A stretch of 64,000 nucleotides of DNA from a virus, in IMG/VR virus record IMGVR_UViG_3300042479_000727, positions 22,616-86,615 of that record; one strand, 5' to 3'. Under the pieces are notes generated by a model, which saw nothing but the letters and a program-made list of their open reading frames with translations, ran no database searches and had not been told where the DNA came from. The stretch's first letter is position 1. Each line of letters opens with the position of its first letter. A program made the position numbers and the translations under genes. Shown here one piece after another: positions 84 to 19,089 of this stretch.

Positions 84-91
84 TATTTACC
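84..91 (-). promoter_or_regulatory. Late promoter motif GGTAAATA
   Basis: A T4-type late -10 element pointing at the leftward neck-type gene. It lies 7 nt from the preferred ATG (76). It is back to back with the rightward motif at 97-104, so one short spacer serves both divergent genes. Confidence 0.5.
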
Positions 92-96
92 GCTAC

Positions 97-104
97 GATA
101 AATA
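97..104 (+). promoter_or_regulatory. Late promoter motif GATAAATA
   Basis: The motif ends exactly 5 nt before the ATG at 110. In T4 the late -10 element spans about -13 to -6, which places the start site on the A of the ATG. No Shine-Dalgarno sequence is visible, so a leaderless mRNA is predicted. Confidence 0.65.
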
Positions 105-109
105 CTCGT

Positions 110-868
110 ATGAGCACATCAGATCAAGCCAAAAATTCCGTATACAACTACTGCAAAACCATGCTAGGCGATGGTATGGTAGATGTAGAACTAGATCCCA
201 TCCACTACGACACAGCACTTAATCGTGCTCTAGCAGTTTTCCGTCAGCGTAGCGACAACGCTGTGGAAGAAAGTTATGCGTTTTTAACCCTCACAGAAAG
301 CACCAACGAATATATCCTGCCCAAAGAAATACAGCAGGTTCGACAGATATTCCGCAGATCGGTGGGATCAAGAACGGGTAATGGAACGGGTGGAACGGTG
401 TTTGAGCCATTTAACTTGGCCTATGCCAATACCTATTTGTTGAGTTCAACGAATATGGGCGGCTTGCTAACCTATGAACTGTTTGCACAGTATCAAGAAT
501 TGGTAGGCAAGATGTTTGGTTCATTTATTAACTACACATGGCATCCACAGAGTCACAAGCTGATCATACATCAACGTCCTCGCGGCGAAGAATCTGTGAT
601 GTTGCAGGTATACAATAGCCGACCTGACTTTGTGATTATTGATGATGTGTATTCCGGACAGTGGATCAAAGACTATGCGTTAGCCAACTGCAAAATGATG
701 CTAGGACAGGCTCGAAGCAAGTTTGGACAGATCGCAGGTCCGCAGGGTGGTACTCAACTCAATGGTACAGCACTGATCACAGAAGGTCAAACTGAGATGG
801 AAAAACTCACCGACGATCTGATGAAATTGGTTCCCGGCGGCAGCGGATATACCTGGATAACTGGTTGA
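110..868 (+). CDS. Neck protein, gp13-like
   Basis: Predicted 252-residue structural protein, close in size to gp13 head-completion/neck proteins of T4-like phages. It opens with a helical segment (residues 1-50) containing a Y-x-x-A-L-x-x-A-L-x-x-F/Y-R pattern that I associate with this family, followed by a beta-rich middle. There is no signal peptide or membrane segment. In the virion it would seal the filled head and join the tail. The position next to a divergent neck-type gene and upstream of the sheath fits. Translation is predicted to be leaderless from the late motif 5 nt upstream. Assignment rests on context and general pattern, not on a diagnostic motif. Confidence 0.55.
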   Translation: MSTSDQAKNSVYNYCKTMLGDGMVDVELDPIHYDTALNRALAVFRQRSDNAVEESYAFLTLTESTNEYILPKEIQQVRQIFRRSVGSRTGNGTGGTVFEPFNLAYANTYLLSSTNMGGLLTYELFAQYQELVGKMFGSFINYTWHPQSHKLIIHQRPRGEESVMLQVYNSRPDFVIIDDVYSGQWIKDYALANCKMMLGQARSKFGQIAGPQGGTQLNGTALITEGQTEMEKLTDDLMKLVPGGSGYTWITG

Positions 869-913
869 CCTTATAACTAATCTATATTATAATTGTTCTA
901 AAGGGGACAATTT

Positions 914-1570
914 ATGATTATAGGTGTATGCGGTTTCATAGGCTCGGGCAAAGACACTGTAGCCGACTATCTAGTTAATTTTCACGAATTTCGCAGAGAA
1001 AGTTTTGCTTCAACACTCAAAGATGCCGTGGCCAGCGTGTTTGGCTGGGATCGAACCATGCTGGAAGGGCGCACAGCACAGGCTCGAGAATGGCGTGAAC
1101 AAGTAGATCCTTGGTGGGCAGCACGTTTAGACATGCCCACATTAACTCCTAGATGGGTTCTACAATACTGGGGAACAGAAGTCTGTCGTAGGTCGTTCCA
1201 CGACGACATATGGATTGCTTCATTAGAAAACAAACTGCGTCTCAGCAAAGATCATATTGTAATTTCAGACTGCCGTTTCCCCAATGAAATTAAATCAATT
1301 AAAGATGCAGGCGGCCAAATTGTTTGGGTGCAGCGTGGTGAGTTGCCTGACTGGTATGAGGATGCTATCAGCGCCAATCAAGGCAATAATGTAGGGCTAA
1401 ACGCCATGAAGATGCGTAAAATACATGCATCGGAATGGGCATGGCTGGGCAGTGATTTTGACAAGATCATCGACAACAATGGCAGCATCGATGAACTTTA
1501 CGAGCAGAGTGCAAACCTAGTAGTCAGCAATAAGATCGCCTTGCCTCCAAGTTATACCCTCTTTGCCTAA
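914..1570 (+). CDS. gp1: Deoxynucleoside monophosphate kinase (gp1-like)
   Basis: Phosphorylates dNMPs to dNDPs for phage DNA synthesis. The N-terminus MIIGVCGFIGSGKDTVADYL contains the P-loop GFIGSGKDT (residues 7-15), where Asp after Gly-Lys is typical of the T4 gp1 family. A later VISDCRFPNEI segment (about 115-125) is the conserved DxRFxNE stretch of this family. Length (218 aa; T4 gp1 is 241) fits. A GGGGA-like ribosome binding site precedes the ATG. The 3' end overlaps the opposite-strand zinc-ribbon gene by 54 nt. This is a lone nucleotide metabolism gene inside the structural module. Confidence 0.85.
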   Translation: MIIGVCGFIGSGKDTVADYLVNFHEFRRESFASTLKDAVASVFGWDRTMLEGRTAQAREWREQVDPWWAARLDMPTLTPRWVLQYWGTEVCRRSFHDDIWIASLENKLRLSKDHIVISDCRFPNEIKSIKDAGGQIVWVQRGELPDWYEDAISANQGNNVGLNAMKMRKIHASEWAWLGSDFDKIIDNNGSIDELYEQSANLVVSNKIALPPSYTLFA

Positions 1571-1855
1571 GATAGCAGCGCAGTTCAAGCACACGGTTTT
1601 GAGATTTGAGGGTCTGCAGTTGTTGAGATTTTCATCTACATGAAACACTCGAAATACTTCGGCGTGTTGAGATCGAAACCCGCATTTTTCACACACGGGT
1701 TTGGGTTTGTATCCTGCTCGTTGCCAACGTGGAACATGAGCACTTGCACCGTGTGCTAGACAGATTTCACACAGTGTTCTGTAATAGGCACGAGTGTCTT
1801 TGTAGTAATTAATGGCTCTAGGTCGCTGTGCGCAGGCCTTGCATAGTGGTCGCAT
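1517..1855 (-). CDS. Zinc-ribbon, HNH-like endonuclease candidate
   Basis: 112-residue basic protein with four CxxC-type pairs (CKAC, CEIC, CEKC, CLNC), suggesting two treble-clef or zinc-ribbon units. The segment VFHVDENLNNCRPSNLKTVC (about 70-89) matches an HNH core: His, then Asp, an Asn in N-x-x-NL spacing, then the C-terminal CxxC. It is probably a small homing-type or packaging-associated nuclease; catalytic ability is not certain. It lies on the strand opposite to all neighbours and overlaps the 3' end of the dNMP kinase gene. A late motif lies 4 nt upstream of the ATG. Confidence 0.6.
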   Translation of the reverse strand: MRPLCKACAQRPRAINYYKDTRAYYRTLCEICLAHGASAHVPRWQRAGYKPKPVCEKCGFRSQHAEVFRVFHVDENLNNCRPSNLKTVCLNCAAILGKEGITWRQGDLIADY

Positions 1856-1859
1856 TTGA

Positions 1860-1867
1860 TATTTACC
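1860..1867 (-). promoter_or_regulatory. Late promoter motif GGTAAATA
   Basis: The element ends 4 nt before the ATG at 1855, again predicting a leaderless or nearly leaderless transcript for the HNH-like gene. Confidence 0.5.
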
Positions 1868-1918
1868 CTTTTAGACCCCTTTTGTTCGGTGCCTAACTTG
1901 CTGTTTTTGGAATAGTAT

Positions 1919-1926
1919 GCTAAATA
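1919..1926 (+). promoter_or_regulatory. Late promoter motif GCTAAATA with leader for the sheath gene
   Basis: Unlike its neighbours, this motif is followed by a leader of about 28 nt containing the ribosome binding site CAGGAGAA, 9-10 nt before the ATG at 1960. This leadered arrangement fits a very highly expressed virion gene. Confidence 0.5.
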
Positions 1927-1959
1927 TTATGAGCAACTATTACCAGGAGAATAGGCGAT

Positions 1960-4900
1960 ATGGCACTAACATCACCAGGCGTACAAGTTACGGTAATCGA
2001 CGAGAGTTTTTATACACCAGCAGAACCTGGTACGGTTCCTCTTATCGTCGTAGCTACAGCCCAAGATAAAACAAACGGAGCTGGAACAAACACAGCTTCA
2101 GCAACAACCAAAGCAAATGCTGGCAAGGCATTTAAAATTACGAGTCAGAGAGATCTCACAGATCTTTTTGGGATTCCGTTCTTTGAACAGACAGCGAGTT
2201 CAACTCCTATCCATGGTTCAGAGCGCAACGAATATGGACTATTAGCAGCCTATAGTTTGCTAGGTGTAAGCAACGCGGCATTTATTGTTCGAGCTGATGT
2301 AGATCTAGACCAACTCGCAGCAGAAGTAGATGCCCCGGGAGCGAACCCTGTAAACGGCAAATGGTGGATGGACACACAGGCCACAACTTGGGGTATCCAA
2401 GAGTGGAACAGTGCCGCAGCATCAACAGCCGGCGGACAGAAATTTACTAACAAAGTACCGTTAGTGCTAACAGATGCAGACAGTCCTTCTAAAATTGAAA
2501 ACAATGCTCCTAAAACATCTGTAGGACAGATCGGAGATTATGCAGTAGTATTTCAAACTGTAGGTGAAGCTGCTGCATATACAACTGCAAATGACTTGGC
2601 AAGAATATATTACAAGTCTCCAGGCAATGGCGGGGTAAGTGCCGGCGGCACACCAGTTGATGCAGGCGAATGGGTATTGATAGGTTCCAATGCGTGGAAA
2701 GCCAGCTGGCCAGTAGCAGTAAGTAACACATACTCGGGAACACTGTCGGGCACTTTATTCGTTAACGCCCAACAAATTACTGCAGGAACTTTAACACAAA
2801 TCGCAAACAACATCAATTCACCCGGTATCGTGGGTGTAACAGCAAAGATGTTGGGTAATAAGTTATACATCTATTCCGATGGTAGATCATTAGGAGAAAA
2901 CACTAATGTTGAAGTTGGAGACAGTGCATTGTCTGCTGATGGACAGATAAAGTTAGAAAATGGCACAGCAAGCTGGAGCACCATTGGCATTGACACCGGA
3001 TTATACCTCAGCCCTAAACTGCAACAATCACCGCACACAGATGTGCCGACTTACAAGCGCAGTGATAACCCAACCTCATTGCAGGGATATGCTACAGGGT
3101 CTGTATGGATTAAAACCACAGAGCCAAACAACGGCGCTAGATGGAGAGCCAAGCAGTGGAGTTCAGCTACATTATCGTGGGTAGCATCAGAAGCTCCTAT
3201 ATATGCATCTACCAATGCTGCACTTTACTATCTAGATCGCAGTGGAGGTGGTGCTAACATCTCAGCAGATACAGTGTTTGTACAGAGCAATGCACAAGAA
3301 CACAGTGGATTTGACGCAACTCCAGACACAGCTGAATTCCGTATGTGGTATAGACATATAGGTATAGGTCAGGGCACCAGCATTACATCCAACATTATCA
3401 AAAGTGGAACCTTTACCGCTGCTTCTACTAGAACATTTACCTTGGCTGAAAGCATAGTAGGACAGTTGGCTCTAGATGCTGCCAAAACCATTACTTTGTC
3501 AACAGCCGCGGGAAATGCGCCTACAGGCGACAACAGCGATGCAGACAAGTTTGCTGCTGCTATCAACGCAGCCGGCTTCACAAACATCGAAGCCTCTGTG
3601 GTGCAGATTACCCTAACACAGAGCAGATTGGTAATTACTCACAATGACGGTGGCGATTTTAGACTCACAGACAGCACAGGTAATCCATTGTCGACTCTAT
3701 TCACTCCATACAACATCAAGACCAGAGCTGGCACAGAAAACTTCTACAATATTTCATTGGGTAGTGGTGCTGCAGGCGCAGAAGATCTTGCTGCAGGTGC
3801 TGCACAAGACTATCTAGCTTCAGGTTATCAGCCGTTAGCCGCACAAGATCCAAGATTCTCAGCCAGTCCAGATGCTCCATTGAATGAAGCAGCAGATCAA
3901 CAACTATGGTACAATCCTAACTTTGCTGATGTTGACATTATGGTTCATAATGGCAACACATGGGTGGGATATAGACACAGCACAGCACCATATTTTAATC
4001 AAACTGACGACACAGCGTTGACAAAGAGAACCGGTTACTTACCAATAGTAGCTGCCAGCAATCCATATGTGTCAGGCGTTACTGTCACAGGTGATTTGTG
4101 GATCAGCACAGCTGATCTAGAAAACTTCCCAACAATTTATAGATACAACAGCAATTTGACCGACATCGGTGATGTTACACTGCGTTGGGAATTGGTTGAT
4201 AAGACAGATCAAACCACAGAAGAAGGTGTGCTGTTTGCAGATGCTCGTCAAGGTACAAGTGGTGGTACAGCTACTACAGCACCTAGTGATGACATTGCCG
4301 ACTTGATTACCAACAACTTCCTAGACCCAGATGCTCCAGATCCAGCACTATATCCAAAAGGTATGTTGCTGTGGAATCTAAGACGTAGCGGCGGCAACGT
4401 TAAGCAATATCGCAACAACTATATTGATACTGCTACAGATAATCCACGCACAAGCCAATCTGGCGGTACTAATAACGGTGACCCATTTGTTAGCGGTTCA
4501 GGCCAAACTATGGAAAGCTACTATCCAGATCGTTGGGTTACAGCGTCAGGCAACAACGAAGACGGATCAGGCAGTTTTGGTCGCAAAGCACAACGCAAGG
4601 TAGTTACACAGGCCTTGAAGTCGGTGATTGACACAAGTCAAGAGATCCGTGATGAAGAACGCAGAAACTTCAACATCATAGCTTGCCCAGGATATCCAGA
4701 AACAATGAGCAATCTAGTTAATCTTAACATTGACAGAGGTATCACAGCATTTGTCATAGGTGATACTCCATTGAGATTGCCTGCAGATGCTACATCATTG
4801 AACAACTGGGGAACTAATGCAGAATTAGTCACAGACAACGGCGATGACGGCATTGTAACCTATGATGAATACTTGGCTACATACTATCCAAATGGATTTA

Positions 4901-6182: not shown

Positions 6183-6213
6183 AAAAAGCCCGACTAAAAA
6201 TCGGGCTTTTTTT
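6183..6213 (+). terminator. Rho-independent terminator after the tube gene
   Basis: Perfect 11-bp arms built from AAAAAGCCCGA and TCGGGCTTTTT with a short A-rich loop and a run of T. It closes the sheath-tube transcript. Confidence 0.9.
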
Positions 6214-6217: not shown

Positions 6218-6225
6218 CATAAATA
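6218..6225 (+). promoter_or_regulatory. Late promoter motif CATAAATA
   Basis: It ends exactly 5 nt before the ATG at 6231 and directly follows the terminator. No Shine-Dalgarno sequence is present, so a leaderless transcript is predicted. Confidence 0.65.
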
Positions 6226-6230: not shown

Positions 6231-7319
6231 ATGGCAAATAAATTCACAAGATATCTATCAGAATTCGGTTCCGGCTTGATTGAGGGTGTGACCAAACCCA
6301 AAGGTCAAATGAGTAATTATCGCCACGCTACTAGATTGTTTATTGACAACAATCTACGATTAAGCCCAAAAACCAAATTCCTGTTTTATGTATATTTCGA
6401 AATGGATAATTCAGTGCGAGGCATGTCACCATTCAGTGCCAAACACAAGAACGAAGCAGGGTTATTGGTCAAGAGTGCCGATCTTCCGAAATTTAATTTT
6501 GATTCTGTAATAAAGAATCAATACAATCGAAAAAAGATCGTATATAAACAGATAAATTATGATCCAGTAAACATCAACATGCACGATGACAGCAACAATG
6601 TTATAAGTGCCATGTGGGCTTTGTATTATGGCTACTACATCGGCGATAGGCATAATCCCAACGCTGCCTACGAATCCAATCATTATAGAGCCACTGGTAC
6701 TAACAAAGACAATTTTCGATATGGCCTAGACAATGACAAGAGTGTGGATTTTTTTAAATCTGTAACTATCTATACCATGAGTCGTAGACGATTTGTCGGT
6801 TACACATTAGTAAACCCCCGAATCAAATCATGGAGCCATGGCGGTATGGATTACTCTGCCAGCGAATTCAACGAAAGCACCATGACCTTGGAATACGAAG
6901 CGGTGCGATACAGCACAGGCAATGTGTCTGTGGGAACACCTAAAGGATTTGCAACCTTGCATTATGACACTGTGCCAAGTCCACTGAGTGTGGCAGGTGG
7001 AGGTGTTGCCACACTAACGGGCGAGGGTGGTGTGCTAGATGGGCTTGAACAGATTTTTGGTGATGTTGGAACAGGCGCTGCCTTTAACACGCCCGGAGGT
7101 TTTATAGGCACCTTGGCCAAAACTTTTAACACCTACAAAAATTTCAATAATCTCAGCAAAGAGCAATTGGCTAGCGAAGCCATTAACATACTAAGTAACC
7201 CAGGAAATATTTCAACAGCAATTGATAAGGTCAGCGGAGTTGTCGGAACTGTGTTTCCTAAAAGTGCTACAACAGAAGCTACTACTAATGCTAGACAACG
7301 CAATATCACAGGTAATTAA
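6231..7319 (+). CDS. Tail-tube-like protein, gp54-type tube initiator candidate
   Basis: 362-residue protein sharing features of the gp19/gp54 tube fold. After a basic N-terminus it has FLFYVYFEMD (about 50), GLLVKSADLPKFNFDSV (about 80), and VYKQINYDPVNINMHDDSNN (about 105), the pattern of tube proteins in which a beta strand precedes a helix with an aromatic YYGYY stretch. The C-terminus is Gly/Ala-rich and then helical. By context (after the tube gene, with its own late promoter) it may cap the baseplate and start tube polymerisation, as gp54 does in T4. A tube paralogue of other function is possible. Confidence 0.5.
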   Translation: MANKFTRYLSEFGSGLIEGVTKPKGQMSNYRHATRLFIDNNLRLSPKTKFLFYVYFEMDNSVRGMSPFSAKHKNEAGLLVKSADLPKFNFDSVIKNQYNRKKIVYKQINYDPVNINMHDDSNNVISAMWALYYGYYIGDRHNPNAAYESNHYRATGTNKDNFRYGLDNDKSVDFFKSVTIYTMSRRRFVGYTLVNPRIKSWSHGGMDYSASEFNESTMTLEYEAVRYSTGNVSVGTPKGFATLHYDTVPSPLSVAGGGVATLTGEGGVLDGLEQIFGDVGTGAAFNTPGGFIGTLAKTFNTYKNFNNLSKEQLASEAINILSNPGNISTAIDKVSGVVGTVFPKSATTEATTNARQRNITGN

Positions 7320-8702: not shown

Positions 8703-9169
8703 CGAAAAAATTAGAAGAACTATTTGATTTAGAATCTCAAGCCGAGCCTACAGCACCACCACCGCCTGTGCATGAAGAAATTAACAGTCTCGATGATCAG
8801 TATCAAGCAGTGCAAAAGATCGTGCAAACACTGCCACATATACAAGAACTAGAAAATCTTGATGAGCAAGAACTAGACAATCTTGCCAAAAAAGCAGAAC
8901 AAGCCTACGACGATCTCATGGACCTTGGTATGAACGTGGAAGTGAGATATTCGGGTAGGATATTTGAAGTAGCTAGCTCAATGATGGGCAATGCTATCAC
9001 TGCCAAAAGCAACAAGATAGAAAAGAAACTCAAAGCTGTAGATCTACAGCTGAAAAAACTAAAAATAGACAACGATGCTGGGGTAGATCCCAACAACGTG
9101 ATAAATGGACAGGGCTATGTGATCACCGATCGCAACGAACTGCTGAAAAAATTAAGCGGAAAAGCATAA
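8699..9169 (+). CDS. gp16: Terminase small subunit, gp16-like
   Basis: 156-residue acidic, helical protein matching small terminase proteins of T4-like phages: N-terminal MTKKLEELFDLE, a central helical region (residues 40-115) that would form the oligomerising coiled coil, and a short C-terminal tail. T4 gp16 is 164 residues. It recognises DNA for packaging and stimulates the gp17 ATPase. It lies four genes before the large subunit, whereas in T4 the two genes are adjacent. Confidence 0.6.
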   Translation: MTKKLEELFDLESQAEPTAPPPPVHEEINSLDDQYQAVQKIVQTLPHIQELENLDEQELDNLAKKAEQAYDDLMDLGMNVEVRYSGRIFEVASSMMGNAITAKSNKIEKKLKAVDLQLKKLKIDNDAGVDPNNVINGQGYVITDRNELLKKLSGKA

Positions 9170-9172
9170 ATA
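9165..9172 (+). promoter_or_regulatory. Late promoter motif CATAAATA
   Basis: The motif overlaps the stop codon of the gp16-like gene and ends exactly 5 nt before the ATG at 9178. No ribosome binding site is visible; leaderless translation is predicted. Confidence 0.65.
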
Positions 9173-9177: not shown

Positions 9178-9774
9178 ATGAAAACTTTTAAAGAATATCT
9201 CGTCGAAAACAAAAAAATTTACAGCTTTAAGATCAAAGTTGCGGGCGATGTTCCTGAAAAATTCCAAGAAGCACTAAAGTCACGCCTGGACAGCTGCAAG
9301 GTTATGACCTTTGAAAAGCTGTCAACAACACCTATACAAAAATTGCCCTTAGATTTTCCAGGCAAAGAAAACATGCAGGTTACTATATATGAAGTGATCT
9401 GCGAATATCCTACAACACCGCCTGAAATTGCTACTCATGTCAAAGCCATGGGCATTGATGAAGATTGTTTCCGTGTTAGAAACAGTGGCGAGCCTACAGA
9501 AGCAGATCAGGTATTACTGGACGATGAACCCAGCGGTGAAGCCATGTTGGATGAACAAGATTTAGACAAAGGCACAGGAAAAATCAAACACAAAGATTAT
9601 TTTGGTGATGATTTTAACAAAGGGTTTCTTAAAGATTTAAGCAAAACAGCCAAGCAGAGAACCAAAGATGGATTTGCTGCTGAATATAAAATACCCAAGC
9701 AAAAAACAGACAAAGCTGGATCTATGAGTCCAATGTCAACTGCTGGCAAACAAGATCCACGCAAAGGAAATTAA
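9178..9774 (+). CDS. Probable internal head protein with capsid-targeting-like N-terminus
   Basis: 198 residues of unknown fold. The first ten residues, MKTFKEYLVE, closely resemble the capsid targeting sequence of T4 internal proteins (MKTYQEFIAE), including the L-x-E that the gp21 prohead protease cleaves after. The middle is a compact mixed segment (residues 12-100); the C-terminal 90 residues are charged, Lys/Asp-rich and probably disordered. I infer packaging into the head during assembly, with possible ejection into the host. Next gene starts 2 nt downstream. Confidence 0.5.
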   Translation: MKTFKEYLVENKKIYSFKIKVAGDVPEKFQEALKSRLDSCKVMTFEKLSTTPIQKLPLDFPGKENMQVTIYEVICEYPTTPPEIATHVKAMGIDEDCFRVRNSGEPTEADQVLLDDEPSGEAMLDEQDLDKGTGKIKHKDYFGDDFNKGFLKDLSKTAKQRTKDGFAAEYKIPKQKTDKAGSMSPMSTAGKQDPRKGN

Positions 9775-11115: not shown

Positions 11116-11142
11116 AATAGGCTCTTCGGAGCCTATTTTTTT
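11116..11142 (+). terminator. Rho-independent terminator
   Basis: Stem AATAGGCTC / GAGCCTATT with a TTCG tetraloop and a T run. It separates the preceding structural gene from terminase. Confidence 0.9.
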
Positions 11143-11143: not shown

Positions 11144-11151
11144 ATTAAATA
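11144..11151 (+). promoter_or_regulatory. Late promoter motif ATTAAATA
   Basis: It ends exactly 5 nt before the terminase ATG at 11157. No Shine-Dalgarno sequence lies between the terminator and the start. Confidence 0.6.
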
Positions 11152-11156: not shown

Positions 11157-12743
11157 ATGTCAAAATCCTTAGACGGCAATCTAATTAAGAAAGCCCATGC
11201 ACAGATACGCTATAATCTCGACGAAGTCAAGCATCTAGAAGCTTGTATGGATCCAGTAACCGGTCCGCTATACTTTGCTAAAAACTTTATCAAGATACAA
11301 CACCCTACTAGAGGATCAATACCATTTGAGCCCTACGGGTTTCAAGAATTGTTGATTGACGCATATCACACAAACAAAGAATGCATAGCCATGTTGCCGC
11401 GCCAGATGGGTAAGACTACATGTGCAGTGGCATACCTGTTGTGGTATACACAGTTTATGCCAGATGTGCAGGTATTGATAGCGGCACACAAGTATGAAGG
11501 TGCTCGAGACATCATGGATCGTTATAGATACGCCTATGAAAATTTACCCGACTTTATTCGAGCTGGAGTGTATTCATACAACAGAAACACCATTGAATAC
11601 GACAACGGATCACGTATACAAGCAACTACTACCACAGAAAACACAGGTCGTGGTAAATCTCTTTCTCTAATCTATTGCGATGAGTTTGCATTCGTGCAGC
11701 CGCCGGAAAAAGCCAAAGAATTCTGGACAGCATTATCACCTACGCTGGCCACAGGCGGTAAAGCTATTATCACATCAACTCCTAACAGTGACGAAGATCA
11801 ATTTGCTATGATTTGGTTAGAAGCCAACAAACGGTTTGACGACTTCGGCAATGAAACTAAACTAGGAGTCAACGGTTTCTTCCCCTTCTTCGCACACTGG
11901 AAGGAACATCCAGACAGGGATGACGAGTGGGCTAGATTAGAACGTGCCAAGATTGGCGAAGAACGGTTCCGTAGAGAGTTTGAATGCGAGTTCTTGATCT
12001 ATGACGAAACTTTAATCAACTCTGTGAAGTTGGTTGAACTTGCAGGTTCAGACCCTATGATGAACATGGGGCAGACTCGTTGGTATAAAGATATAAATCC
12101 CAAAGCCACATATCTAATAGCTTTAGATCCCAGCCTAGGCACAGGTGGTGACTACGGAGCCATCCAAGTCTACGAAATGCCTGAAATGATACAAGTAGCA
12201 GAGTGGCATCACAATACCACGCCTGTGCAGCAACAGGTCAGAGTCTTGAGAGAAATACTAAAATACATACATGACAGAGGCGAAGAACGAGGCGGTGCAC
12301 CTATCATGTATTACAGTGTTGAAAATAATACAATAGGTGAATCTGCTCTGATAGTTATCAACGATATAGGCGAAGAAAACTTTCATGGACTGTTTCTTAG
12401 TGAGCCCATCCGCAAAGGACACATACGCAAGTTCCGTAAAGGATTTAATACCACGCACAGAAGTAAAATATCTGCTTGCAGTCAACTAAAAAACATGATC
12501 GAAAATCACAAGATGACTATCAACAGCAAACCGTTGATATCTGAGCTAAAAACATATATTGCTTCAGGGCTGGGTTTTAAAGCCAAGAGTGGAGAACATG
12601 ACGATTTAGTCAGTTCAACACTGTTAATCATGCGCATGGCAGATGTGTTAGCGGACTGGGATCCGCAGATCTACGATAAAATGACAGAAAAAATCACCGA
12701 TGAATCCATGCCTATGCCGATCTTTGTCAGTATGGGTCTTTGA
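11157..12743 (+). CDS. gp17: Terminase large subunit, gp17-like
   Basis: The DNA-packaging motor and headful nuclease. The ATPase domain has the Walker A PRQMGKTT at residues 81-88 and a Walker B LSLIYCDEFAF (about 170-180). A coupling motif TSTPN follows. The RNase H-like nuclease domain starts around 320 with LIALDPSLGTGGDYGAIQVYE, holding the first catalytic Asp, and ends with HDDLVSS near 480. Length 528 against 610 in T4. The predicted leaderless start fits the late motif 5 nt upstream. Confidence 0.95.
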   Translation: MSKSLDGNLIKKAHAQIRYNLDEVKHLEACMDPVTGPLYFAKNFIKIQHPTRGSIPFEPYGFQELLIDAYHTNKECIAMLPRQMGKTTCAVAYLLWYTQFMPDVQVLIAAHKYEGARDIMDRYRYAYENLPDFIRAGVYSYNRNTIEYDNGSRIQATTTTENTGRGKSLSLIYCDEFAFVQPPEKAKEFWTALSPTLATGGKAIITSTPNSDEDQFAMIWLEANKRFDDFGNETKLGVNGFFPFFAHWKEHPDRDDEWARLERAKIGEERFRREFECEFLIYDETLINSVKLVELAGSDPMMNMGQTRWYKDINPKATYLIALDPSLGTGGDYGAIQVYEMPEMIQVAEWHHNTTPVQQQVRVLREILKYIHDRGEERGGAPIMYYSVENNTIGESALIVINDIGEENFHGLFLSEPIRKGHIRKFRKGFNTTHRSKISACSQLKNMIENHKMTINSKPLISELKTYIASGLGFKAKSGEHDDLVSSTLLIMRMADVLADWDPQIYDKMTEKITDESMPMPIFVSMGL

Positions 12744-12749
12744 TAAATA
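12742..12749 (+). promoter_or_regulatory. Late promoter motif GATAAATA
   Basis: It overlaps the terminase stop codon and ends exactly 5 nt before the ATG at 12755. This spacing is the main reason for preferring 12755 over a TTG at 12740. Confidence 0.65.
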
Positions 12750-12754: not shown

Positions 12755-14647
12755 ATGGACGCAACAAACAACATAGCCACCGATTTATTCTACAAAGTAC
12801 GCAGCCGCTTCTCTGGGCTGAAATTAGGTGCCGAAACCGGTGAGATAACCATCAATCCGGAACAGGCAAGATTCTTTGATTTTGACTACACAGAAGGCCA
12901 GAATCCCATAGGGCATGTCAGCATCAGTCTTGCTGAACCCAACTCCATGAAAGTGTATTTTTCCAATGGAATTACCGAAGGCATGGATGATGGACAAAAA
13001 ACAAATTGGTACGGATTCTTAAAAGAACTGCGTCAATTTGCCAAACGCAGATTATTGAGTTTTGACACCAGAGACATTGCCAAAGACAATCTTGACAAAC
13101 GAGATTATCAATTCCTTAGTCAGAACGCACAACCTAAACCACAGACAAATACGATACAAAAACCAGTTGGAGAAAGCACAATGAGTGAAAACATAATGAG
13201 CGAAAGCTCAATGTATGGTAGCAAAACAATGAGCTATCAAAAATTAATGGACACACGTTTGATCATTAAACATAATCAAGCAGTGATGGATGACACACAA
13301 CCAGGTTCTAGAACCAGAAATATCGGTGCCTTGTTTGTAGAAAATCAAGACGGTGAAAGATTCAAATATCCATTTATTCATCTAGCTGGTGCTAGAGCCA
13401 TGCAGCGCCATGTGGCCAATGGCGGCCTGCCTTACGATGATCTAGGCAAAAGTATTACGCAAATGAGCGAAGAAATTGCACAGTTGAAAAGTTTTGGTAA
13501 CTATGTGGTCCGTAACGATCTAATGAATTCCGAAACCAACTCAGTGGTCGAAAGAAGCACAGAATATCTAAATCATCTTAGAGAACAGATCAAGGCATTG
13601 AGCAAACAAAGTCACTACGAGGCTTACAGAGAATCATTCCAGGCAAACCCCAACGAGGAAATACCTCAAGACGTGGTAGAAGATTTTAAACAAAAATTCA
13701 CAGTCAGATCGTTTAAAGAAGATATTGCAACTGTGTTTCCGGTCTTATACAGACTAATGAAAGAAGGAAGCACTATAGGCTATGACGACATAGTCGCTAT
13801 GACACAAGAAGAAATCAACAACGAAGACCTTACAGTTGAAACAGAAGACAATGACCCATTTGCTCAATTTGAAAATTGGGTAATGGCACTAGGCGAAGAA
13901 AGTGCGGTAACCAGTGAAGATCCTGAAGAGCAGGCAGCAGCATTACAGGGACTACAAGAACTTGTAGGACAACACTTCCCAGCAGGTGTCGATGGAACCA
14001 ACGCCATTGAAAGTCTTAAAGGATTAATCGAAGATCCAGAATTGTATAAAAGAATCAAAGAACAGGCAGCACAAGATCCAGATGCATGTGTAAGACCATT
14101 GGTCAAAGATTGGTTGGAATTCAATGCACCTGAAACACTAGAACAGTTGGATTTTGGCGATATGGTAGATGACCCGGAAGCGACCCAGGGAGTTGATCAA
14201 ACTGCTCCGGAAGCGGAACCAGCACCAGTTGATCCAGCGGCAGCGGTTGCGCCTGCACAAGAGCCATTGCCGCGAGAAGCTGTGGATCCCGACAATCCAA
14301 GAGACTACGAAAGACCAGCAGTAGATAGAAAAAAAGCAGGCCAGTCACCGTTAACTATGAAAGATGTAGAATACAAAGACGACAAACCCAAACGTGATTT
14401 TGAAAAGAGAAAAGAAAGATTAAACACCGAAGAGTTAGCAGAGTTTATCACATCATTTTATGATCGTGACACAGGCACATTTCCCAAAGGCCCAGAAGGT
14501 GTTGCTATTATGGTAGGCAAGAAGTTTGGCGAACAGGCAGAACAAGTTGCTCGTAAATTTGTAGAACGTATGGCACCACAGCAGAGTACCGATCAAAATC
14601 CAGAACTTCAAGAACTATCACGCATTAGAGAATTAGCAGGCTATTAA
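12755..14647 (+). CDS. Large conserved phage protein, probably virion-associated
   Basis: 630 residues of unknown family. The N-terminal 110 residues form a mixed alpha/beta domain. A Ser/Met-rich linker is followed by a long alpha-helical region (about 170-360), an acidic stretch, an Ala/Pro-rich linker (about 480-510) and a helical C-terminus ending LSRIRELAGY. That type of C-terminal tail recurs in T4-like head-associated proteins, which is weak support for a virion role. The start at 12755 is chosen from the 5-nt late motif spacing. A terminator follows. Confidence 0.65.
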   Translation: MDATNNIATDLFYKVRSRFSGLKLGAETGEITINPEQARFFDFDYTEGQNPIGHVSISLAEPNSMKVYFSNGITEGMDDGQKTNWYGFLKELRQFAKRRLLSFDTRDIAKDNLDKRDYQFLSQNAQPKPQTNTIQKPVGESTMSENIMSESSMYGSKTMSYQKLMDTRLIIKHNQAVMDDTQPGSRTRNIGALFVENQDGERFKYPFIHLAGARAMQRHVANGGLPYDDLGKSITQMSEEIAQLKSFGNYVVRNDLMNSETNSVVERSTEYLNHLREQIKALSKQSHYEAYRESFQANPNEEIPQDVVEDFKQKFTVRSFKEDIATVFPVLYRLMKEGSTIGYDDIVAMTQEEINNEDLTVETEDNDPFAQFENWVMALGEESAVTSEDPEEQAAALQGLQELVGQHFPAGVDGTNAIESLKGLIEDPELYKRIKEQAAQDPDACVRPLVKDWLEFNAPETLEQLDFGDMVDDPEATQGVDQTAPEAEPAPVDPAAAVAPAQEPLPREAVDPDNPRDYERPAVDRKKAGQSPLTMKDVEYKDDKPKRDFEKRKERLNTEELAEFITSFYDRDTGTFPKGPEGVAIMVGKKFGEQAEQVARKFVERMAPQQSTDQNPELQELSRIRELAGY

Positions 14648-14694: not shown

Positions 14695-14799
14695 GCGAAA
14701 TGAAATCAAACTTTTATGTAAACGTTTAGTCTTATTAAAGCGTTATATATATACGTAGGGAATATTCTTTGCGTAAAACAACCTAAAGGAAACTTTAAA

Positions 14800-14997
14800 A
14801 TGAAATCAGTAATCGCAATCATTGTATCAGCATTTGCAGTATCAGCATTTGCACAAGCACCTGCTGCACCTGCTAAGAAAGAAGAAGCTAAACCAGCTGC
14901 ATCTGCTCCTGCAAAGGCAGCAACGCCTGCAAAAAGTGAACCTGCTAAGAAAGAGCCAGCTAAAGCAGACGCAAAAGCCGCTACTCCAGCGAAGTAA
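14800..14997 (+). CDS. Small exported Ala/Pro/Lys-rich protein
   Basis: 65 residues: a clear Sec signal peptide (MKSVIAIIVSAFAVSAFAQA, cleavage after SAFA) and then a low-complexity Ala/Pro/Lys tail. The mature peptide would be basic and periplasmic. Such proteins are common in freshwater betaproteobacteria, so it may be host-derived; that is inference from composition. The ribosome binding site AAAGGAAA lies about 10 nt upstream. A weak TATATATA-type -10 lies about 50 nt before the start. The reading frame immediately downstream (14998-15172) may once have belonged with it. Confidence 0.7.
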   Translation: MKSVIAIIVSAFAVSAFAQAPAAPAKKEEAKPAASAPAKAATPAKSEPAKKEPAKADAKAATPAK

Positions 14998-15172
14998 TTT
15001 CGGGTTAGACGATAGTGACTTCGTTGTTGATGATGAAGTCACATTTGGTCGTAATCTAAAGGCTCGAGACTTTGGTAAGGTAGTTGATGATGACTTATCA
15101 GAGTATGTAAAATTTAGATTATGGCTAGCTAGGCAACGAGCCATGGCAGCATATAAGAAAAAGTGGGCCTGA
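14998..15172 (+). pseudogene. Open frame without start: frameshift extension or gene remnant
   Basis: An open frame, +1 relative to the exported protein, runs from its stop to a TGA inside a terminator. It encodes about 58 codons that look genuinely protein-coding: an acidic part, then LSEYVKFRLWLARQRAMAAY and KKKWA, a Lys/Arg amphipathic helix. No ATG, GTG or TTG occurs in the non-overlapping part except a late ATG at 15142; a GTG at 14936 lies in the overlap without a ribosome binding site. It could be a frameshifted C-terminal extension, a 5'-truncated phage gene, or a sequencing error. Confidence 0.4.
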
Positions 15173-15187
15173 CCCGCTTTTTCTTTT
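15155..15187 (+). terminator. Rho-independent terminator
   Basis: A 13-bp stem (AAGAAAAAGTGGG with CCCGCTTTTTCTT, one G-U pair) ends in T-rich sequence. It contains the stop codon of the open frame before it. Confidence 0.85.
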
Positions 15188-15220
15188 GGTAAGATAAATC
15201 AAAAAATACGTAGATAATCG

Positions 15221-15249
15221 TTGACCTTGATAAATAAAAAGCGCATAAT
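15221..15249 (+). promoter_or_regulatory. Sigma70-type promoter for gp32
   Basis: TTGACC, 17-nt spacer, CATAAT. A late-type motif GATAAATA lies inside the spacer (15229-15236), so early and late transcription of gp32 may overlap. The leader of about 50 nt ends in the strong ribosome binding site AAGGAGG. Confidence 0.75.
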
Positions 15250-15306
15250 AAAACATGTGCATAAGGCATATAAACATTTTAGGCATAACACAAGGAGGCA
15301 TTTAAA

Positions 15307-16275
15307 ATGGCAACATTATCAGAAATCCGTGCTAAACTTCAAGAAGCACAATCAAAGTCCACAGGACAATCCACTGGCGGTGGAGACAACGCAATTTACC
15401 CACACTGGAATATGCAAGAAGGCAAAGAAGCCGTTGTACGTTTCTTACCTGATGGCAATCCTAACAACACATTCTTCTGGGTAGAACGTGCGATGATCAA
15501 ATTGCCATTCGCTGGCATCAAAGGTGAAACAGACAGCAGAGCAGTGCAGGTACAAGTTCCCTGTGTGGAAATGTATAACGACGGCACAGCATGTCCAATC
15601 CTATCAGAAGTGCGTGGTTGGTTTAAAGATAAATCATTGGAAGAAATGGGTCGTAAATATTGGAAAAAGCGTTCATACATTTTCCAAGGCTTTGTGGTTG
15701 AAGATCCACTCAAGGAAGATAAACTTCCAGACAACCCTATCCGTAGATTTATTATCGGACCTCAGATCTATGCTATCATCCGTTCAGCGTTGATGGATCC
15801 GGAATTGGATGAGTTGCCAACAGACTATCTGAAAGGTCTCGACTTCCGTATTGCCAAGACATCAAAAGGTGGCTTTGCTGACTACTCTACATCAAAGTGG
15901 AGCCGACGTGAGCGTTCACTGACAGATGTTGAATCAGCGGCAGTAGAGTCACATGGTCTTTTTGATCTCAGCGGCTTCTTGCCAAAGAAACCCACTGATG
16001 TTGAACTTAAAGTCATGAAAGAAATGTTTGAAGCTTCTGTAGATGGTGAAGCCTATGACATGGAACGTTGGGGACAATATTTTAAACCAGCAGGCATGAG
16101 CCAAGCCACTGGTGATCCTAATAGACCAACGGCTGTTGCTGCTCCTATTGCAGATGCAGATGACGAACCAGCTCCTGTAGTTAAGGCCGCTCCAGCAGCC
16201 GCTCCGGCAGCTTCAACAGAATCTGCTAGTCGTGCGCAAGACATTCTTGCCATGATTCGCAATCGTCAGAAGTAA
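15307..16275 (+). CDS. gp32: Single-stranded DNA-binding protein, gp32-like
   Basis: Coats single-stranded DNA in replication and recombination. 322 residues (T4 gp32: 301). The N-terminal basic helix (LSEIRAKLQEAQ) matches the cooperativity domain. The core has the aromatic/basic OB-fold segments, including VPCVEMYNDGTACPILSE. Only two Cys (C-x8-C) are visible there, so the classical His-Cys3 zinc site of T4 is incomplete. The C-terminus is an Asp/Glu and then Ala-rich linker ending in a helix (AQDILAMIRNR). It is followed by UvsX and UvsY, its functional partners, and ends at a terminator. Confidence 0.92.
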   Translation: MATLSEIRAKLQEAQSKSTGQSTGGGDNAIYPHWNMQEGKEAVVRFLPDGNPNNTFFWVERAMIKLPFAGIKGETDSRAVQVQVPCVEMYNDGTACPILSEVRGWFKDKSLEEMGRKYWKKRSYIFQGFVVEDPLKEDKLPDNPIRRFIIGPQIYAIIRSALMDPELDELPTDYLKGLDFRIAKTSKGGFADYSTSKWSRRERSLTDVESAAVESHGLFDLSGFLPKKPTDVELKVMKEMFEASVDGEAYDMERWGQYFKPAGMSQATGDPNRPTAVAAPIADADDEPAPVVKAAPAAAPAASTESASRAQDILAMIRNRQK

Positions 16276-16289
16276 TTAGACTAAACATA

Positions 16290-16317
16290 GAGTGCGAGGC
16301 AATCTCGCACTCTCTTT
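16290..16317 (+). terminator. Rho-independent terminator after gp32
   Basis: Perfect 9-bp stem GAGTGCGAG / CTCGCACTC, loop GCAAT, T-rich tail. It probably allows readthrough to uvsX, since no strong promoter is seen before 16337. Confidence 0.88.
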
Positions 16318-16336
16318 CATTTCTAGGAAAATAATA

Positions 16337-16528
16337 ATGGCAAAACTAACTAAATTAACAAAAGTGAGCGAATCAATCACGATCAATCGTTATGATAATG
16401 CTTGGATGGTTGAAATTAGCGGGCGTGATAAAAAAGAAGAATGGAAGAATTCTAAAACAGTCTGCAACACAGAAGAAGAATTAATTGCGTTAATCAAAGA
16501 ATACAACGCAATGGACCTGGACAATTAA
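16337..16528 (+). CDS. Small conserved protein upstream of uvsX
   Basis: 63 residues, beginning MAKLTKLTKVSESITINRYDN. Predicted small alpha/beta fold with beta strands in the first half and a C-terminal helix. The start is chosen at the ATG preceded by AGGAAAA; an upstream in-frame ATG would extend into the terminator. It lies one base before uvsX and is likely co-translated. Function unknown; its place suggests recombination. Confidence 0.65.
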   Translation: MAKLTKLTKVSESITINRYDNAWMVEISGRDKKEEWKNSKTVCNTEEELIALIKEYNAMDLDN

Positions 16529-16529
16529 T

Positions 16530-17609
16530 ATGGCAAAAGCATTTGATATTTCTAAATTTAGAAAGTCAATTACTAAATCTATTGACGGTTTAAGTATTGG
16601 CTTTAACGACCCAACTGATTGGGTCAGTACAAACAACTATGCATTAAATTATCTTATTAGCGGAGACTTTAAACGTGGTATTCCGCTAGGTAAAGTTACA
16701 GTATTTGCAGGCGAAAGTGGCGCAGGTAAGAGTTTTATCTGTTCAGGCAATCTAGTTAAGAATGCACAAGCACAAGGTATCTTTCCGATCTTGATTGATA
16801 CAGAAAATGCGCTTGACGAGAAATGGTTACACGCACTTGAAGTTGATACAAGTCCAGATAAGTTGTTGAAACTTAACATGGCCATGATTGACGATGTGGC
16901 AAAAACTATTACAGAATTTGTTGCAGAATACAAGACAATGCCAGAAGACGAGCGTCCTAAAGTATTGTTCATCATTGACAGTCTTGGAATGTTACTGACT
17001 CCCACTGATGTTAACCAGTTTCAAGCCGGGGATCTCAAAGGTGACATGGGCCGTAAACCTAAAGCACTCACAGCACTGGTTCGTAATTGTGTAAACATGT
17101 TTGGTAGTCTAGGTATTGGTCTAGTCGCAACCAATCACACATACGCAAGCCAAGACATGTTTGATCCAGACGACAAGATCAGTGGCGGTCAAGGCTTTAT
17201 CTACGCCAGTTCAATCGTGGTTGCCATGCGTAAATTGAAACTGAAACTCGATGCTGATGGCAACAAGACCACAACTGTGCAAGGTATTCGTGCTGCTTGT
17301 AAGATCATGAAAACTCGTTATGCAAAGCCGTTTGAAAGTGTGCAGGTCGAGATTCCTTATGAAACAGGTATGAGTCCATATAGTGGATTAGTCGACCTGT
17401 TCGAAGCCAAAGGCATGCTCAAGAAAGAAGGTAACAGCCTTGTCTACACTACCAAAGACGGCGAGATCATCAAGCAGTTCCGCAAGGCTTGGGAACGTAA
17501 TGAGAAAGACGGCCTAGACATTGCCATGGAAGATATTTCCAAACATGGTGAAATTTCCACATCTGAGATAACTACTACAGTTGAACCAGACTTGGAGGAA
17601 GCACAATGA
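16530..17609 (+). CDS. uvsX: UvsX RecA-like recombinase
   Basis: Strand-exchange recombinase driving recombination-dependent replication. 359 residues (T4: 391). Walker A GESGAGKS at 61-68, Walker B VLFIIDSLGML (about 146-156), and an L1/L2 region including VATNHTYASQDMFDP and SGGQGF. The acidic C-terminal tail is typical. It sits in a gp32-uvsX-uvsY cluster. Its stop overlaps the next start. Confidence 0.95.
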   Translation: MAKAFDISKFRKSITKSIDGLSIGFNDPTDWVSTNNYALNYLISGDFKRGIPLGKVTVFAGESGAGKSFICSGNLVKNAQAQGIFPILIDTENALDEKWLHALEVDTSPDKLLKLNMAMIDDVAKTITEFVAEYKTMPEDERPKVLFIIDSLGMLLTPTDVNQFQAGDLKGDMGRKPKALTALVRNCVNMFGSLGIGLVATNHTYASQDMFDPDDKISGGQGFIYASSIVVAMRKLKLKLDADGNKTTTVQGIRAACKIMKTRYAKPFESVQVEIPYETGMSPYSGLVDLFEAKGMLKKEGNSLVYTTKDGEIIKQFRKAWERNEKDGLDIAMEDISKHGEISTSEITTTVEPDLEEAQ

Positions 17610-17839
17610 AAGAAGATTTAATCGCTGACCTGTGGCACGTGGTAATTGGACATATTCCTGAAAAACAAAGACCGGATGTGGCCACTGATTTTGTAAACAC
17701 ATTGCTTGACTACGGTATCAAAGAAAGTGTGTTAGACAGTTTGCAAGGAGTAGATCCTTTTCTTGACGAAGCTATCACATACGCCATCGACGGTGAAGAG
17801 ATCGAAGAAGATGTAGACAGCTACGACGAAGAGGAATAA
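17606..17839 (+). CDS. Small acidic conserved protein between uvsX and uvsY
   Basis: 77 residues with a very acidic C-terminus (EEIEEDVDSYDEEE). The front half is helical. It overlaps uvsX by 4 nt (ATGA) and abuts uvsY. A ribosome binding site (TTGGAGGAAG) lies in the uvsX end. I know no function; the acidic tail suggests a protein partner. Confidence 0.7.
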   Translation: MKEDLIADLWHVVIGHIPEKQRPDVATDFVNTLLDYGIKESVLDSLQGVDPFLDEAITYAIDGEEIEEDVDSYDEEE

Positions 17840-18295
17840 ATGAATTGGTACGACAAGGTTAGTAAAGATATAAGCAACATTCCAGATGCTGCGGCCTATT
17901 ATGAAGCTGAGTTAATCGAAGCAAAACAAGATGTCCGCATAGCGGGTAACATCGAGAAGGCAAGTTCGCAGATGCCCGGCATTGTGGAAGAACGCTTTAA
18001 TCAACTTCAAGAAATTGAAGGTATCCTTGAATACTTAAATATTGAACTTCGTAGACTTCGCAGTCAACATTTTCGCAAGTATCTCGAAAATTATCAACGA
18101 GCTTTATCTTCAAGGGACTGTGAAAAGTTCGTTGAAGGTGAAGCTGACGTTGTAGACTTTGAAAAAATTATCAACGATTTCGCTCTTCTACGCAACAAAT
18201 GGCTGGGCATTATCAAAGCACTTGACCAAAAACAATGGCATCTCAGCAACATTGTTAAACTACGAGTATCTGGACTAGAAGACGCCAGTCTTTAA
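17840..18295 (+). CDS. uvsY: UvsY recombination mediator
   Basis: Predicted UvsY, which loads UvsX onto gp32-covered DNA. 151 residues (T4: 137), all helical. The central stretch LNIELRRLRSQHFRKYLENY then QRALSSRDCEKFVEGEADVV is typical of UvsY in T4-like phages of marine origin, as is DFALLRNKWLGIIKALDQKQW near the end. Adjacent to uvsX. The recombination block is interrupted directly after this gene by sugar-related cargo. Confidence 0.85.
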   Translation: MNWYDKVSKDISNIPDAAAYYEAELIEAKQDVRIAGNIEKASSQMPGIVEERFNQLQEIEGILEYLNIELRRLRSQHFRKYLENYQRALSSRDCEKFVEGEADVVDFEKIINDFALLRNKWLGIIKALDQKQWHLSNIVKLRVSGLEDASL

Positions 18296-18314
18296 ATACT
18301 AGATAATATACGCA

Positions 18315-18322
18315 GATAAATA
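18315..18322 (+). promoter_or_regulatory. Late promoter motif GATAAATA
   Basis: It ends exactly 5 nt before the ATG at 18328, suggesting the first glycan block is expressed late and leaderless. Confidence 0.65.
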
Positions 18323-18327
18323 TCTGC

Positions 18328-19089
18328 ATGAAAATCGTTTTAATTACTGGTGGATTTGATCCCCTACATTCCGGGCACATTGCCTACTTCAAAGCTGCAA
18401 AAACTCTAGGAGACATGTTAATTGTTGGATTAAATTCTGACGATTGGCTTGTCCGTAAAAAAGGCGCGGCCTTTATGCCGTGGAACGAACGACTGTGCAT
18501 CATCAATAATCTATCGATGGTTGACGAAGTTTATACCTTTAATGACGATGACGGATCAGCAAAACATTTTATTCAACAAGTGCGAGCACATTATCCCGAT
18601 GCCAAACTGATATTTGCCAATGGCGGCGATAGGACCAAAGATAACATTCCAGAGATGGATGTTGTAGATTCCAATTTGTCATTTGTATTTGGTGTGGGCG
18701 GCGAAAATAAAATGAATTCTAGTTCGTGGATTCTTCAAGAATGGAAGGCTCCTAAGACCGGTAGGGCCTGGGGATACTATCGTGTCTTGCATGAACAAGG
18801 TCAAGAAGTCAAAGTCAAAGAACTTACGGTATTACCTAAAACCTGTCTCAGCATGCAACGCCATCAAAATCGAGCAGAACATTGGTTCGTGTCTGAAGGC
18901 ATCGCTACAGTCTATACTGTTGACCAATCTACAGACATGGATCTGCTAGGTGAATTTACTCGATTTCAACATATACACATCAACAAGCATCAATGGCATA
19001 AGTTATGCAACGAAACCGATCAGCCTCTGAAAGTTGTAGAAATACAATACGGAGATCAGTGCATAGAAGAGGATATAGAAAGAAAATGA
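18328..19089 (+). CDS. Nucleotidyltransferase fused to a cupin
   Basis: 253 residues in two parts. Residues 1-130 are a HxGH-type nucleotidyltransferase: GGFDPLHSGHIAYF holds the HSGH signature at about 15-18, as in RfaE/glycerol-phosphate cytidylyltransferases; the later ISSTK-like motif is not obvious. Residues 150-245 are a cupin: LSMQRHQNRAEHWFVSEG resembles the metal site of type II mannose-6-phosphate isomerase cupins. The reaction is probably NTP activation of a sugar or alcohol phosphate. It opens the glycan block between uvsY and uvsW. Confidence 0.75.
   Translation: MKIVLITGGFDPLHSGHIAYFKAAKTLGDMLIVGLNSDDWLVRKKGAAFMPWNERLCIINNLSMVDEVYTFNDDDGSAKHFIQQVRAHYPDAKLIFANGGDRTKDNIPEMDVVDSNLSFVFGVGGENKMNSSSWILQEWKAPKTGRAWGYYRVLHEQGQEVKVKELTVLPKTCLSMQRHQNRAEHWFVSEGIATVYTVDQSTDMDLLGEFTRFQHIHINKHQWHKLCNETDQPLKVVEIQYGDQCIEEDIERK

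Follow-up and report, generated by a model that had tools for sequence, protein, structure and literature searches.

Predicted leaderless genes behind T4-type late promoter boxes in a clade of uncultured phages

The stretch of DNA analyzed here (the window, 64,000 nucleotides in length) spans positions 22,616-86,615 of an 86,615-base virus record (IMGVR_UViG_3300042479_000727) and has the gene content of a T4-type region, with genes for the tail sheath, tube, head-tail adaptor, terminase, single-stranded DNA-binding protein, UvsX, UvsY, primase and helicase. The closest terminases in named phages are those of PA5oct (54%), Phosso (51%) and Atu_ph07 (47%). Several genes of the window carry a TAAATA box, the central element of late promoters in T4, at a spacing of exactly 5 nt, spacing being the number of bases that separate TAAATA from ATG. 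We predict from this arrangement that these genes are transcribed into mRNAs that would lack a leader, and that the same type of box serves other genes through mRNAs with a leader and a Shine-Dalgarno sequence. The label “late” rests here on the motif and on the functions of the genes. Late transcription in T4 is a textbook system, and we know of no account of it yielding leader-free mRNA.

Six genes on the plus strand of the window, all predicted to be leaderless, have the box at 5 nt. The first box (99..104) precedes ATG 110 of a head-tail adaptor gene (Ad2; 110..868; PHROG 211); at its counterpart in the related record G001 (281,658 bases), the neighboring gene is divergent and 27 bp away. 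The box at 6220..6225 leads to ATG 6231 of a tail-tube-like protein gene (6231..7319), and a terminator-like hairpin with a T run (6186..6213; the G001 copy folds at -11.7 kcal/mol) lies immediately 5′ of this promoter. At 9167..9172, the TAA of the box is also the stop codon of the upstream gene, and the gene that follows (ATG 9178; 9178..9774) encodes a 198-aa protein without a PHROG match. Another terminator-like hairpin, with a run of seven T (11116..11142; the G001 copy folds at -11.8 kcal/mol), is found 3 nt 5′ of the promoter (11146..11151) of the terminase large subunit gene (terL; ATG 11157; 11157..12743). The next box (12744..12749) abuts the terL stop and precedes ATG 12755 of a virion structural (head) protein gene (12755..14647), whose start the open reading frame (ORF) tool had placed at TTG 12740; of the two codons, ATG 12755 is in register. 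The last of the six boxes (18317..18322) opens a nucleotidyltransferase-like gene (ATG 18328; 18328..19089; PHROG 7878), which has a second TAAATA at 18293-18298, 29 nt upstream.

The spacing is 4 nt at TAAATA 1860..1865 on the minus strand, before an HNH endonuclease gene (1855-1517) that has a weak AAGG 11 nt 5′ of its ATG in G001; at 44763..44768 on the plus strand, before ATG 44773 of a 119-aa protein of unassigned function; and at 53759..53764 on the minus strand, before a DNA methyltransferase gene (53754-52807). The nine spacings listed in an earlier, sequence-only reading of this DNA (5 nt at the six genes above and 4 nt at these three) proved exact. Beyond that list, minus-strand boxes lie 5 nt from the ATG of a 69-aa gene (48668..48673; gene 48662-48453), 4 nt from that of a 64-aa gene (49951..49956; gene 49946-49752) and 5 nt from the inner in-frame ATG 54697 of ORF 54703-54314 (54703..54708), and a 39-codon ORF begins 4 nt past TAAATA 49550, also on the minus strand. 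TAAATA followed by a leader is found on the plus strand at 1921..1926 (33 nt to the tail sheath ATG 1960; AGGAG), 29234..29239 (19 nt to ATG 29259; TAAGGAG), 39349..39354 (21 nt to ATG 39376; AAGG), 45842..45847 (55 nt to ATG 45903; AAGGAG) and 47985..47990 (24 nt to ATG 48015; AGGA), and on the minus strand at 47908..47913 (25 nt to the in-frame ATG 47882; AAGGAG). Genes 1960 and 45903 had already been singled out for having a strong ribosome-binding site and the motif farther off, and both do.

The earlier reading had also held that chance was a poor explanation for the fixed spacing. Consistent with this, TAAATA-N4/5-ATG occurs 13 times in the window, about five times more often than in Markov simulations (mean 2.5, maximum 7 in 200). 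In the 86.6-kb record, ATAAATA-N5-ATG is present 7 times and its reversed control is absent, and among ORFs of at least 60 aa, 4 start at spacing 4 and 8 at spacing 5, with at most 3 at any other spacing from 0 to 59. TAAATA itself is depleted on the two strands of the window (35 sites versus a shuffle mean of 52; 98 of 100 shuffles had at least 35), as if stray late promoters were perhaps avoided.

Two scans of viral contigs identified 159 related loci with terminase identities to the window of 51-100%; together with 15 pieces of G001, the window and two stretches of its record, they make up 177 clade loci. At least one ORF of at least 60 aa starts 5 nt past TAAATA in 143 of the 159. In G001, 15 spacings are of 5 nt and 6 of 4 nt, followed by a total of 6 over 6-17 nt and a broad second hump at 18-33 nt. 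The distance distribution in the full genome and in relatives had been set beforehand as the test of the prediction, and the peak at 5 nt is present. Across the 177 loci, the 453 raw sites at 5 nt correspond to 98 distinct N-terminal sequences, a count that takes divergent orthologues separately, compared to 29 at 4 nt, 1 at 3 nt and 15, 14 and 12 at 6, 7 and 8 nt. Linked by blastp into gene families, the numbers are 38 at 5 nt, 17 at 4 nt, 10, 7 and 10 at 6-8 nt and 3-12 at ten other spacings. For boxes with several ATGs, the cluster analysis preferred the one at 4-5 nt; a nearest-ATG rule gives 452 sites at 5 nt and 61 at 4 nt.

A motif-free scan retrieved the same signal, with TAAATA at 5 nt as the top hexamer over positions 0-49 upstream (145 of 1,333 distinct starts against a background of 5.1). 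Other orders of the same six letters are found in no more than 23 distinct sequences at each spacing from 3 to 7, apart from ATTAAA at 4 (25) and two that share bases with the 5-nt motif, ATAAAT at 6 (71) and AAATAT at 4 (49). Of 485 TAAATA-N5-ATG occurrences, 93% open an ORF of at least 60 aa; the proportion is 83% at 4 nt, 70, 62 and 37% at 6-8 nt and 5-31% at spacings of 1-3, 10 and 12 nt. In some lineages the box is replaced by TAAGTA, which also peaks at 5 nt (18 starts). Near the terL ATG, ATAAGTA stands in place of ATAAATA in loci L147, L149, L155, L175 and L181, which belong to one clade of the terL tree, and also in L159, L180, L188 and L137. Promoter specificity may have drifted in these lineages in step with the late sigma.

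To build the terL tree, we removed TerL proteins shorter than 430 aa and near-duplicates, which reduced 161 rows to 107 (104 from IMG/VR and 3 named), and added 7 named phages for a total of 114 terminases. With a leaderless match sought ahead of a Shine-Dalgarno match, 82 of the 104 dereplicated IMG/VR rows have the leaderless arrangement, 9 a Shine-Dalgarno sequence and 11 neither (2 are cut), and the tree has at least 10 changes between leaderless and Shine-Dalgarno rows. Orthologues largely keep the distance, with 396 of 449 sites in 22 clusters at 4-5 nt; of the 53 off-spacing sites, 17 come from two clusters of gene 18328, the one with a second box.

The distance of the box from the ATG separates two groups of genes. 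The fraction with a Shine-Dalgarno sequence is 0.07 at 4 nt (n = 29), 0.05 at 5 nt (n = 98) and 0.02 at 6-8 nt, is 0.69-0.73 at 16-25 nt and declines to 0.39 at 36-45 nt. The 4-5 nt genes use 215 ATG, 8 GTG and 7 TTG start codons (GTG/TTG in 15/230) and the Shine-Dalgarno-led genes 323, 23 and 36 (59/382). Thus, two marks of leaderless genes, the lack of a Shine-Dalgarno sequence and a preference for AUG, are found in the genes with the box at 4 or 5 nt. The accessible text of PMC9031893 gives AUG as the best codon for leaderless initiation in Escherichia coli and Caulobacter, a preference that fits the ATG bias of the 4-5 nt genes. A minor group of genes in the 177 loci (41 N-terminal sequences), in which TAAATA is 6-8 nt from the ATG, likewise lacks a Shine-Dalgarno sequence and may represent mRNAs with leaders of 1-3 nt.

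Among 332 motif-linked clusters, 108 are leaderless, 106 Shine-Dalgarno-led and 118 neither. The leaderless type includes genes for the baseplate wedge, terminase and adaptor; the sheath, tail-fiber and holin genes of G001 have the same box plus a leader, and its major capsid gene is Shine-Dalgarno-led with no box nearby. The split may follow the dose in which each protein is needed. The length of the sheath gene leader varies among orthologues from 24 to 45 nt, and some orthologues switch mode between lineages. An example is the cluster of gene 9178 relatives, where a ribosome-binding site is lacking in 43 of 53 members at 4-7 nt and present in 8 of 12 at 16 nt or more.

The predicted start site follows from the geometry of the T4 promoter. 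The accessible part of PMC2988020 describes the T4 late box as 8 bp long with a T at -13, which we read as the first base of the box; the coordinates given in the sequence-only reading (-13 to -6) fit this description. A box beginning at -13 ends at -6 and leaves five bases ahead of +1, so that a spacing of 5 nt puts the A of the ATG at +1. The base composition of the clade box and the initiator are compatible with a TATAAATA-like box of 8 bp covering -13 to -6, from which the start position is predicted. An A precedes TAAATA in 64-69% of cases and a G precedes that A in 42-59%; farther upstream, no base exceeds a frequency of 0.55 at positions -25 to -14 from the ATG of the 98 5-nt genes. In 66 of 160 Shine-Dalgarno-led promoters, the dinucleotide TA occupies positions +5/+6 after the motif (shuffle mean 17.9, maximum 34 in 5,000), and the frequency weighted over 53 families is 0.23 versus 0.10 in shuffles, a value reached by 0.3% of 1,000. 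When ATAAATA and a strong ribosome-binding site are both required (13 families), TA has a frequency of 0.52 at +5/+6 versus 0.34 at +7/+8. The base before the ATG is T in 76% of the 5-nt genes (70% family-weighted) versus 32% of the Shine-Dalgarno-led genes. Because TA at +5/+6 of the leader promoters falls on the positions of this T and of the A of the ATG, the two sets of promoters point to the same start. The A of the ATG is thus the most likely first base of the transcripts of the 5-nt genes, as predicted from the spacing and the initiator. In the leader promoters of named phages, the counts of A at +6 and of TA at +5/+6 are 11 and 5 of 15 in T4, 8 and 6 of 9 in PA5oct, 9 and 3 of 14 in Phosso, 3 and 1 of 6 in Atu_ph07, 10 and 7 of 17 in GAP32, 3 and 3 of 3 in P-SSM2, 0 and 0 of 3 in phiM12, 2 and 1 of 7 in Mosig and 9 and 2 of 11 in Melnitz; Syn9 provided no leader promoters for the count.

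The arrangement is also present in cultured Pelagibacter phages. HTVC008M has 14 TAAATA-N5-ATG sites versus 4 reversed, and 12 of the 14 are annotated starts of coding sequences, including those for head closure, tube cap, baseplate wedge, tape measure, DNA end protector and tail completion proteins; 11 of these 12 lack a Shine-Dalgarno sequence. Two divergent virion genes of HTVC008M (locus L194), DNA end protector and head closure (18916 on the minus strand and 18943), have only 26 bp between their ATGs, and this interval holds both late boxes. Mosig, which has the same host, contains 11 sites versus 3 reversed, and 5 of 7 examined are annotated starts, the DNA end protector among them. In the TerL tree, HTVC008M is on a separate branch with P-SSM2 and Melnitz. 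Hence, the trait must be ancient with frequent losses or have had more than one origin, two histories between which the tree does not separate.

A trait of all T4-like phages was considered and rejected, as the 5-nt peak is absent in the 40-50 kb examined from each of T4, PA5oct, Phosso, Atu_ph07, GAP32, P-SSM2, Syn9, phiM12 and Cr30. Over whole records, TAAATA-N5-ATG and its reversed control number 15/12 in PA5oct, 10/5 in T4, 3/2 in Phosso, 15/9 in Atu_ph07, 5/8 in GAP32, 6/6 in P-SSM2, 3/3 in Syn9, 0/0 in phiM12, 0/1 in Cr30, 5/3 in both Melnitz and S-PM2, 2/2 in KVP40, 0/0 in phiW-14, 2/3 in AG-345-F15, 4/4 in AG-345-L05 and 5/5 in S-SRM01. The hits in T4 and Atu_ph07 exceed their reversed controls, with only part of them compared to annotated starts. 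Isolated cases coincide with starts in S-SRM01 (homing endonuclease, 207752) and PA5oct (structural gene, 144985); neither of the two KVP40 sites nor S-SRM01 33060 is at an annotated start.

We propose that, in this clade, one T4-type late promoter class (an ATAAATA -10 box, often GATAAATA), presumably recognized by a gp55-type sigma, would serve two kinds of genes. In the first, box and ATG are separated by exactly 5 (sometimes 4) nt, and the polymerase would start on the A or within about one base of it; the mRNA would then have no leader and be translated by leaderless initiation at its 5′-terminal AUG. In the other, the box lies 16-45 nt upstream and would give rise to an mRNA with a leader and a Shine-Dalgarno sequence. 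We consider it highly probable that leaderless and leader mRNAs originate in this way from a single class of promoters. For the genes at 5 nt, no other reading has as much support in the sequence as the leaderless one, through the sharp and conserved peak, the rarity of Shine-Dalgarno sequences, the mostly frozen spacing, the ATG bias and the initiator. The earlier suggestion of a late program built on leaderless translation is overstated, given that the same box with a leader occurs in about as many clusters. Leaderless T4-type late promoters would thus be a clade-level feature of a mixed program, apparently undescribed so far and a variant of a known phenomenon.

Translation of the 5-nt genes could instead depend on longer read-through transcripts and termination-reinitiation, with the promoter at the start codon minor or serving downstream genes. 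The organization of G001 gives this idea some room, with 18 of 21 such genes having a same-strand upstream neighbor, 9 of them within 3-34 nt, and in the window genes 9178 and 12755 begin 8-11 nt past the upstream stop. Against it, a terminator-like hairpin with a T run precedes terL, gene 6231 and a third G001 gene, and 3 of the 21 G001 genes (two at 24 and 27 bp), as well as the HTVC008M pair, face a divergent gene. Where a promoter directly follows a terminator or faces a divergent gene, no space is left for a leader. Of 134 related terL loci whose box is 4-6 nt from the ATG, 91 match a pattern of hairpin plus T run upstream of the box (74 of 78 at identities of at least 78% and 17 of 56 below). 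Moreover, reinitiation requires neither a box at a fixed 5 nt nor a T before the ATG. We therefore regard read-through as an improbable explanation for the arrangement.

TAAATA could also act in the mRNA, as an A/U-rich ribosome site rather than a promoter, and in genes without a Shine-Dalgarno sequence it does occupy the position of a ribosome-binding site. The same box, with the same preceding bases, is however found 16-45 nt before Shine-Dalgarno-led genes; late promoters of T4 are built around it, and TAAGTA substitutes for it in some lineages, also at 5 nt. A translation element thus appears very unlikely. Even less credible is a misassignment of the start codons, with the real starts downstream and provided with a ribosome-binding site. 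Although 12 of the 98 5-nt genes have an in-frame start preceded by a Shine-Dalgarno sequence within 40 codons, so do Shine-Dalgarno-led genes at the same rate (24 of 163). Further, a KK pair at residues 10-11 of the window TerL is invariant in PA5oct, Phosso and GAP32, the annotated TerL start of Phosso aligns with that of the window, and the annotators of HTVC008M independently chose the same ATGs.

Several observations weigh against the proposal of two modes from one promoter class. Four gene families supply 104 of the 160 promoters behind the initiator signal, which for this reason is weaker support than we first took it to be, having rated it the strongest evidence. Weighted by family, TA is as frequent at +7/+8 as at +5/+6 (0.23 each), and the 14 leader promoters of HTVC008M have it at +5/+6 in 4 cases and at +2/+3 in 6. 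The 88% conservation of the spacing is partly by construction, because the 22 clusters were picked for having more than half of their members at 4-5 nt. The lack of a Shine-Dalgarno sequence extends to the genes at 6-8 nt, and 10 of the 53 members at 4-7 nt of one orthologue cluster have a Shine-Dalgarno-like tetramer. A recognized terminator precedes only 3 of the 18 G001 genes with a same-strand upstream neighbor, so that read-through mRNA, and hence a mixed mRNA supply, is possible at the others. The ability of the host to use leaderless mRNA is assumed.

The search for phage factors weighs on both sides. The gp55-type sigma is present in larger relatives of the window (phrog_234 matches with E values of 7e-21 to 3e-26 in G001, G002, G003, G004 and G009, 5 of 15 records); the profile had no match in the other 10, including the fragment to which the window belongs. 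Profiles for gp45 and gp33 (PF09116 and phrog_254) had no match in G001-G003 and G009 and did match T4 and HTVC008M, and phrog_223, a further gp33/gp45 test run without a positive control, had none in the 15 records. The clamp-coupled late activator of G001-G003 and G009 may be very divergent or replaced. We also considered, and rejected, a phage-encoded factor favoring leaderless translation: no bS21 was found in G000-G005 and no IF3 in G001-G004, G009 or HTVC008M. Annotated bS21 is present in HTVC008M and Mosig; as none was found in G000-G005, bS21 does not track the trait.

The clade resembles T4 in its TATAAATA-type box, which in T4 is located roughly a helical turn upstream of the start and is not accompanied by a conserved -35 element (PMC2988020, accessible part), and in the gp55 homologue of the larger relatives. 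It differs in that the 50-kb late region of T4 has no 5-nt peak (1 site at 5 nt) and in that gp33 and gp45 were not found by profile in the clade. Leaders are absent from most middle and late transcripts of the Thermus phage phiYS40 (PMC3594737, accessible part). The published phiYS40 system differs from the clade in its Thermus host and is marked by an IF2/IF3 shift; the clade has a T4-type box and two translation modes per promoter class, and no IF3 was found in five clade records. In Deinococcus-Thermus bacteria, leaderless mRNA is commonly driven by a -10 motif placed roughly 6-7 bp ahead of the ORF, with experimental support (PMC12340547, accessible part), but that box is the bacterial TANNNT, whereas the clade has TAAATA before phage genes. 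HTVC008M and Mosig share with the clade the same TAAATA-N5-ATG arrangement at annotated starts, which the accessible portions of PMC7892664 and PMC7029224 do not mention. The available text of PMC9004378 reports 15 late promoters in Melnitz and has the word “leaderless” solely in a reference title, and that of PMC5312081 describes phage transcripts as often leaderless, yet lists leaders of 26-491 nt for AR9. For T4-type phages, no account of late mRNA without a leader was found in the literature searched, which included accessible portions of PMC3014915, PMC7892883, PMC6024767 and PMC2984593 and left subscription journals mostly uncovered.

More tentatively, the split late program could extend over at least two T4-like branches, the uncultured and largely jumbo-related clade and the Pelagibacter phages. 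One gp55-type promoter class might there provide low-copy parts (terminase, adaptor, baseplate wedge, end protector) from leaderless mRNAs and bulk parts (sheath, fibers) from Shine-Dalgarno-led ones, the position of the box setting the mode of translation and perhaps the protein dose; we find this wider scheme possible, if somewhat doubtful. The arrangement, in which a T4-type promoter appears fused to the start codon, recurs in uncultured phages across dozens of gene families, 38 of them at 5 nt, and raises the question of why one phage would mix two translation modes. It also predicts exact start sites in a cultured phage, HTVC008M, where the reading can be tested. The predicted 5′ ends fall there on the A of the start codons at 6280, 7562, 11972, 16007 (minus strand), 18916 (minus strand), 18943, 19456, 31132, 49760, 75559, 75830 and 142360. 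Leaderless boxes may also help to explain the failure of late-promoter prediction in pelagimyophages (PMC7029224, accessible part). For gene finders, TAAATA at 5 nt is a usable start signal, marking the 145 of 1,333 distinct starts retrieved by the motif-free scan.

Elsewhere in the window, an Rfam scan at gathering thresholds returned no match and a tRNA scan found none. The genes for primase and helicase flank one for a Nol-like carbamoyltransferase (41596-43065), of which two are annotated in HTVC008M.

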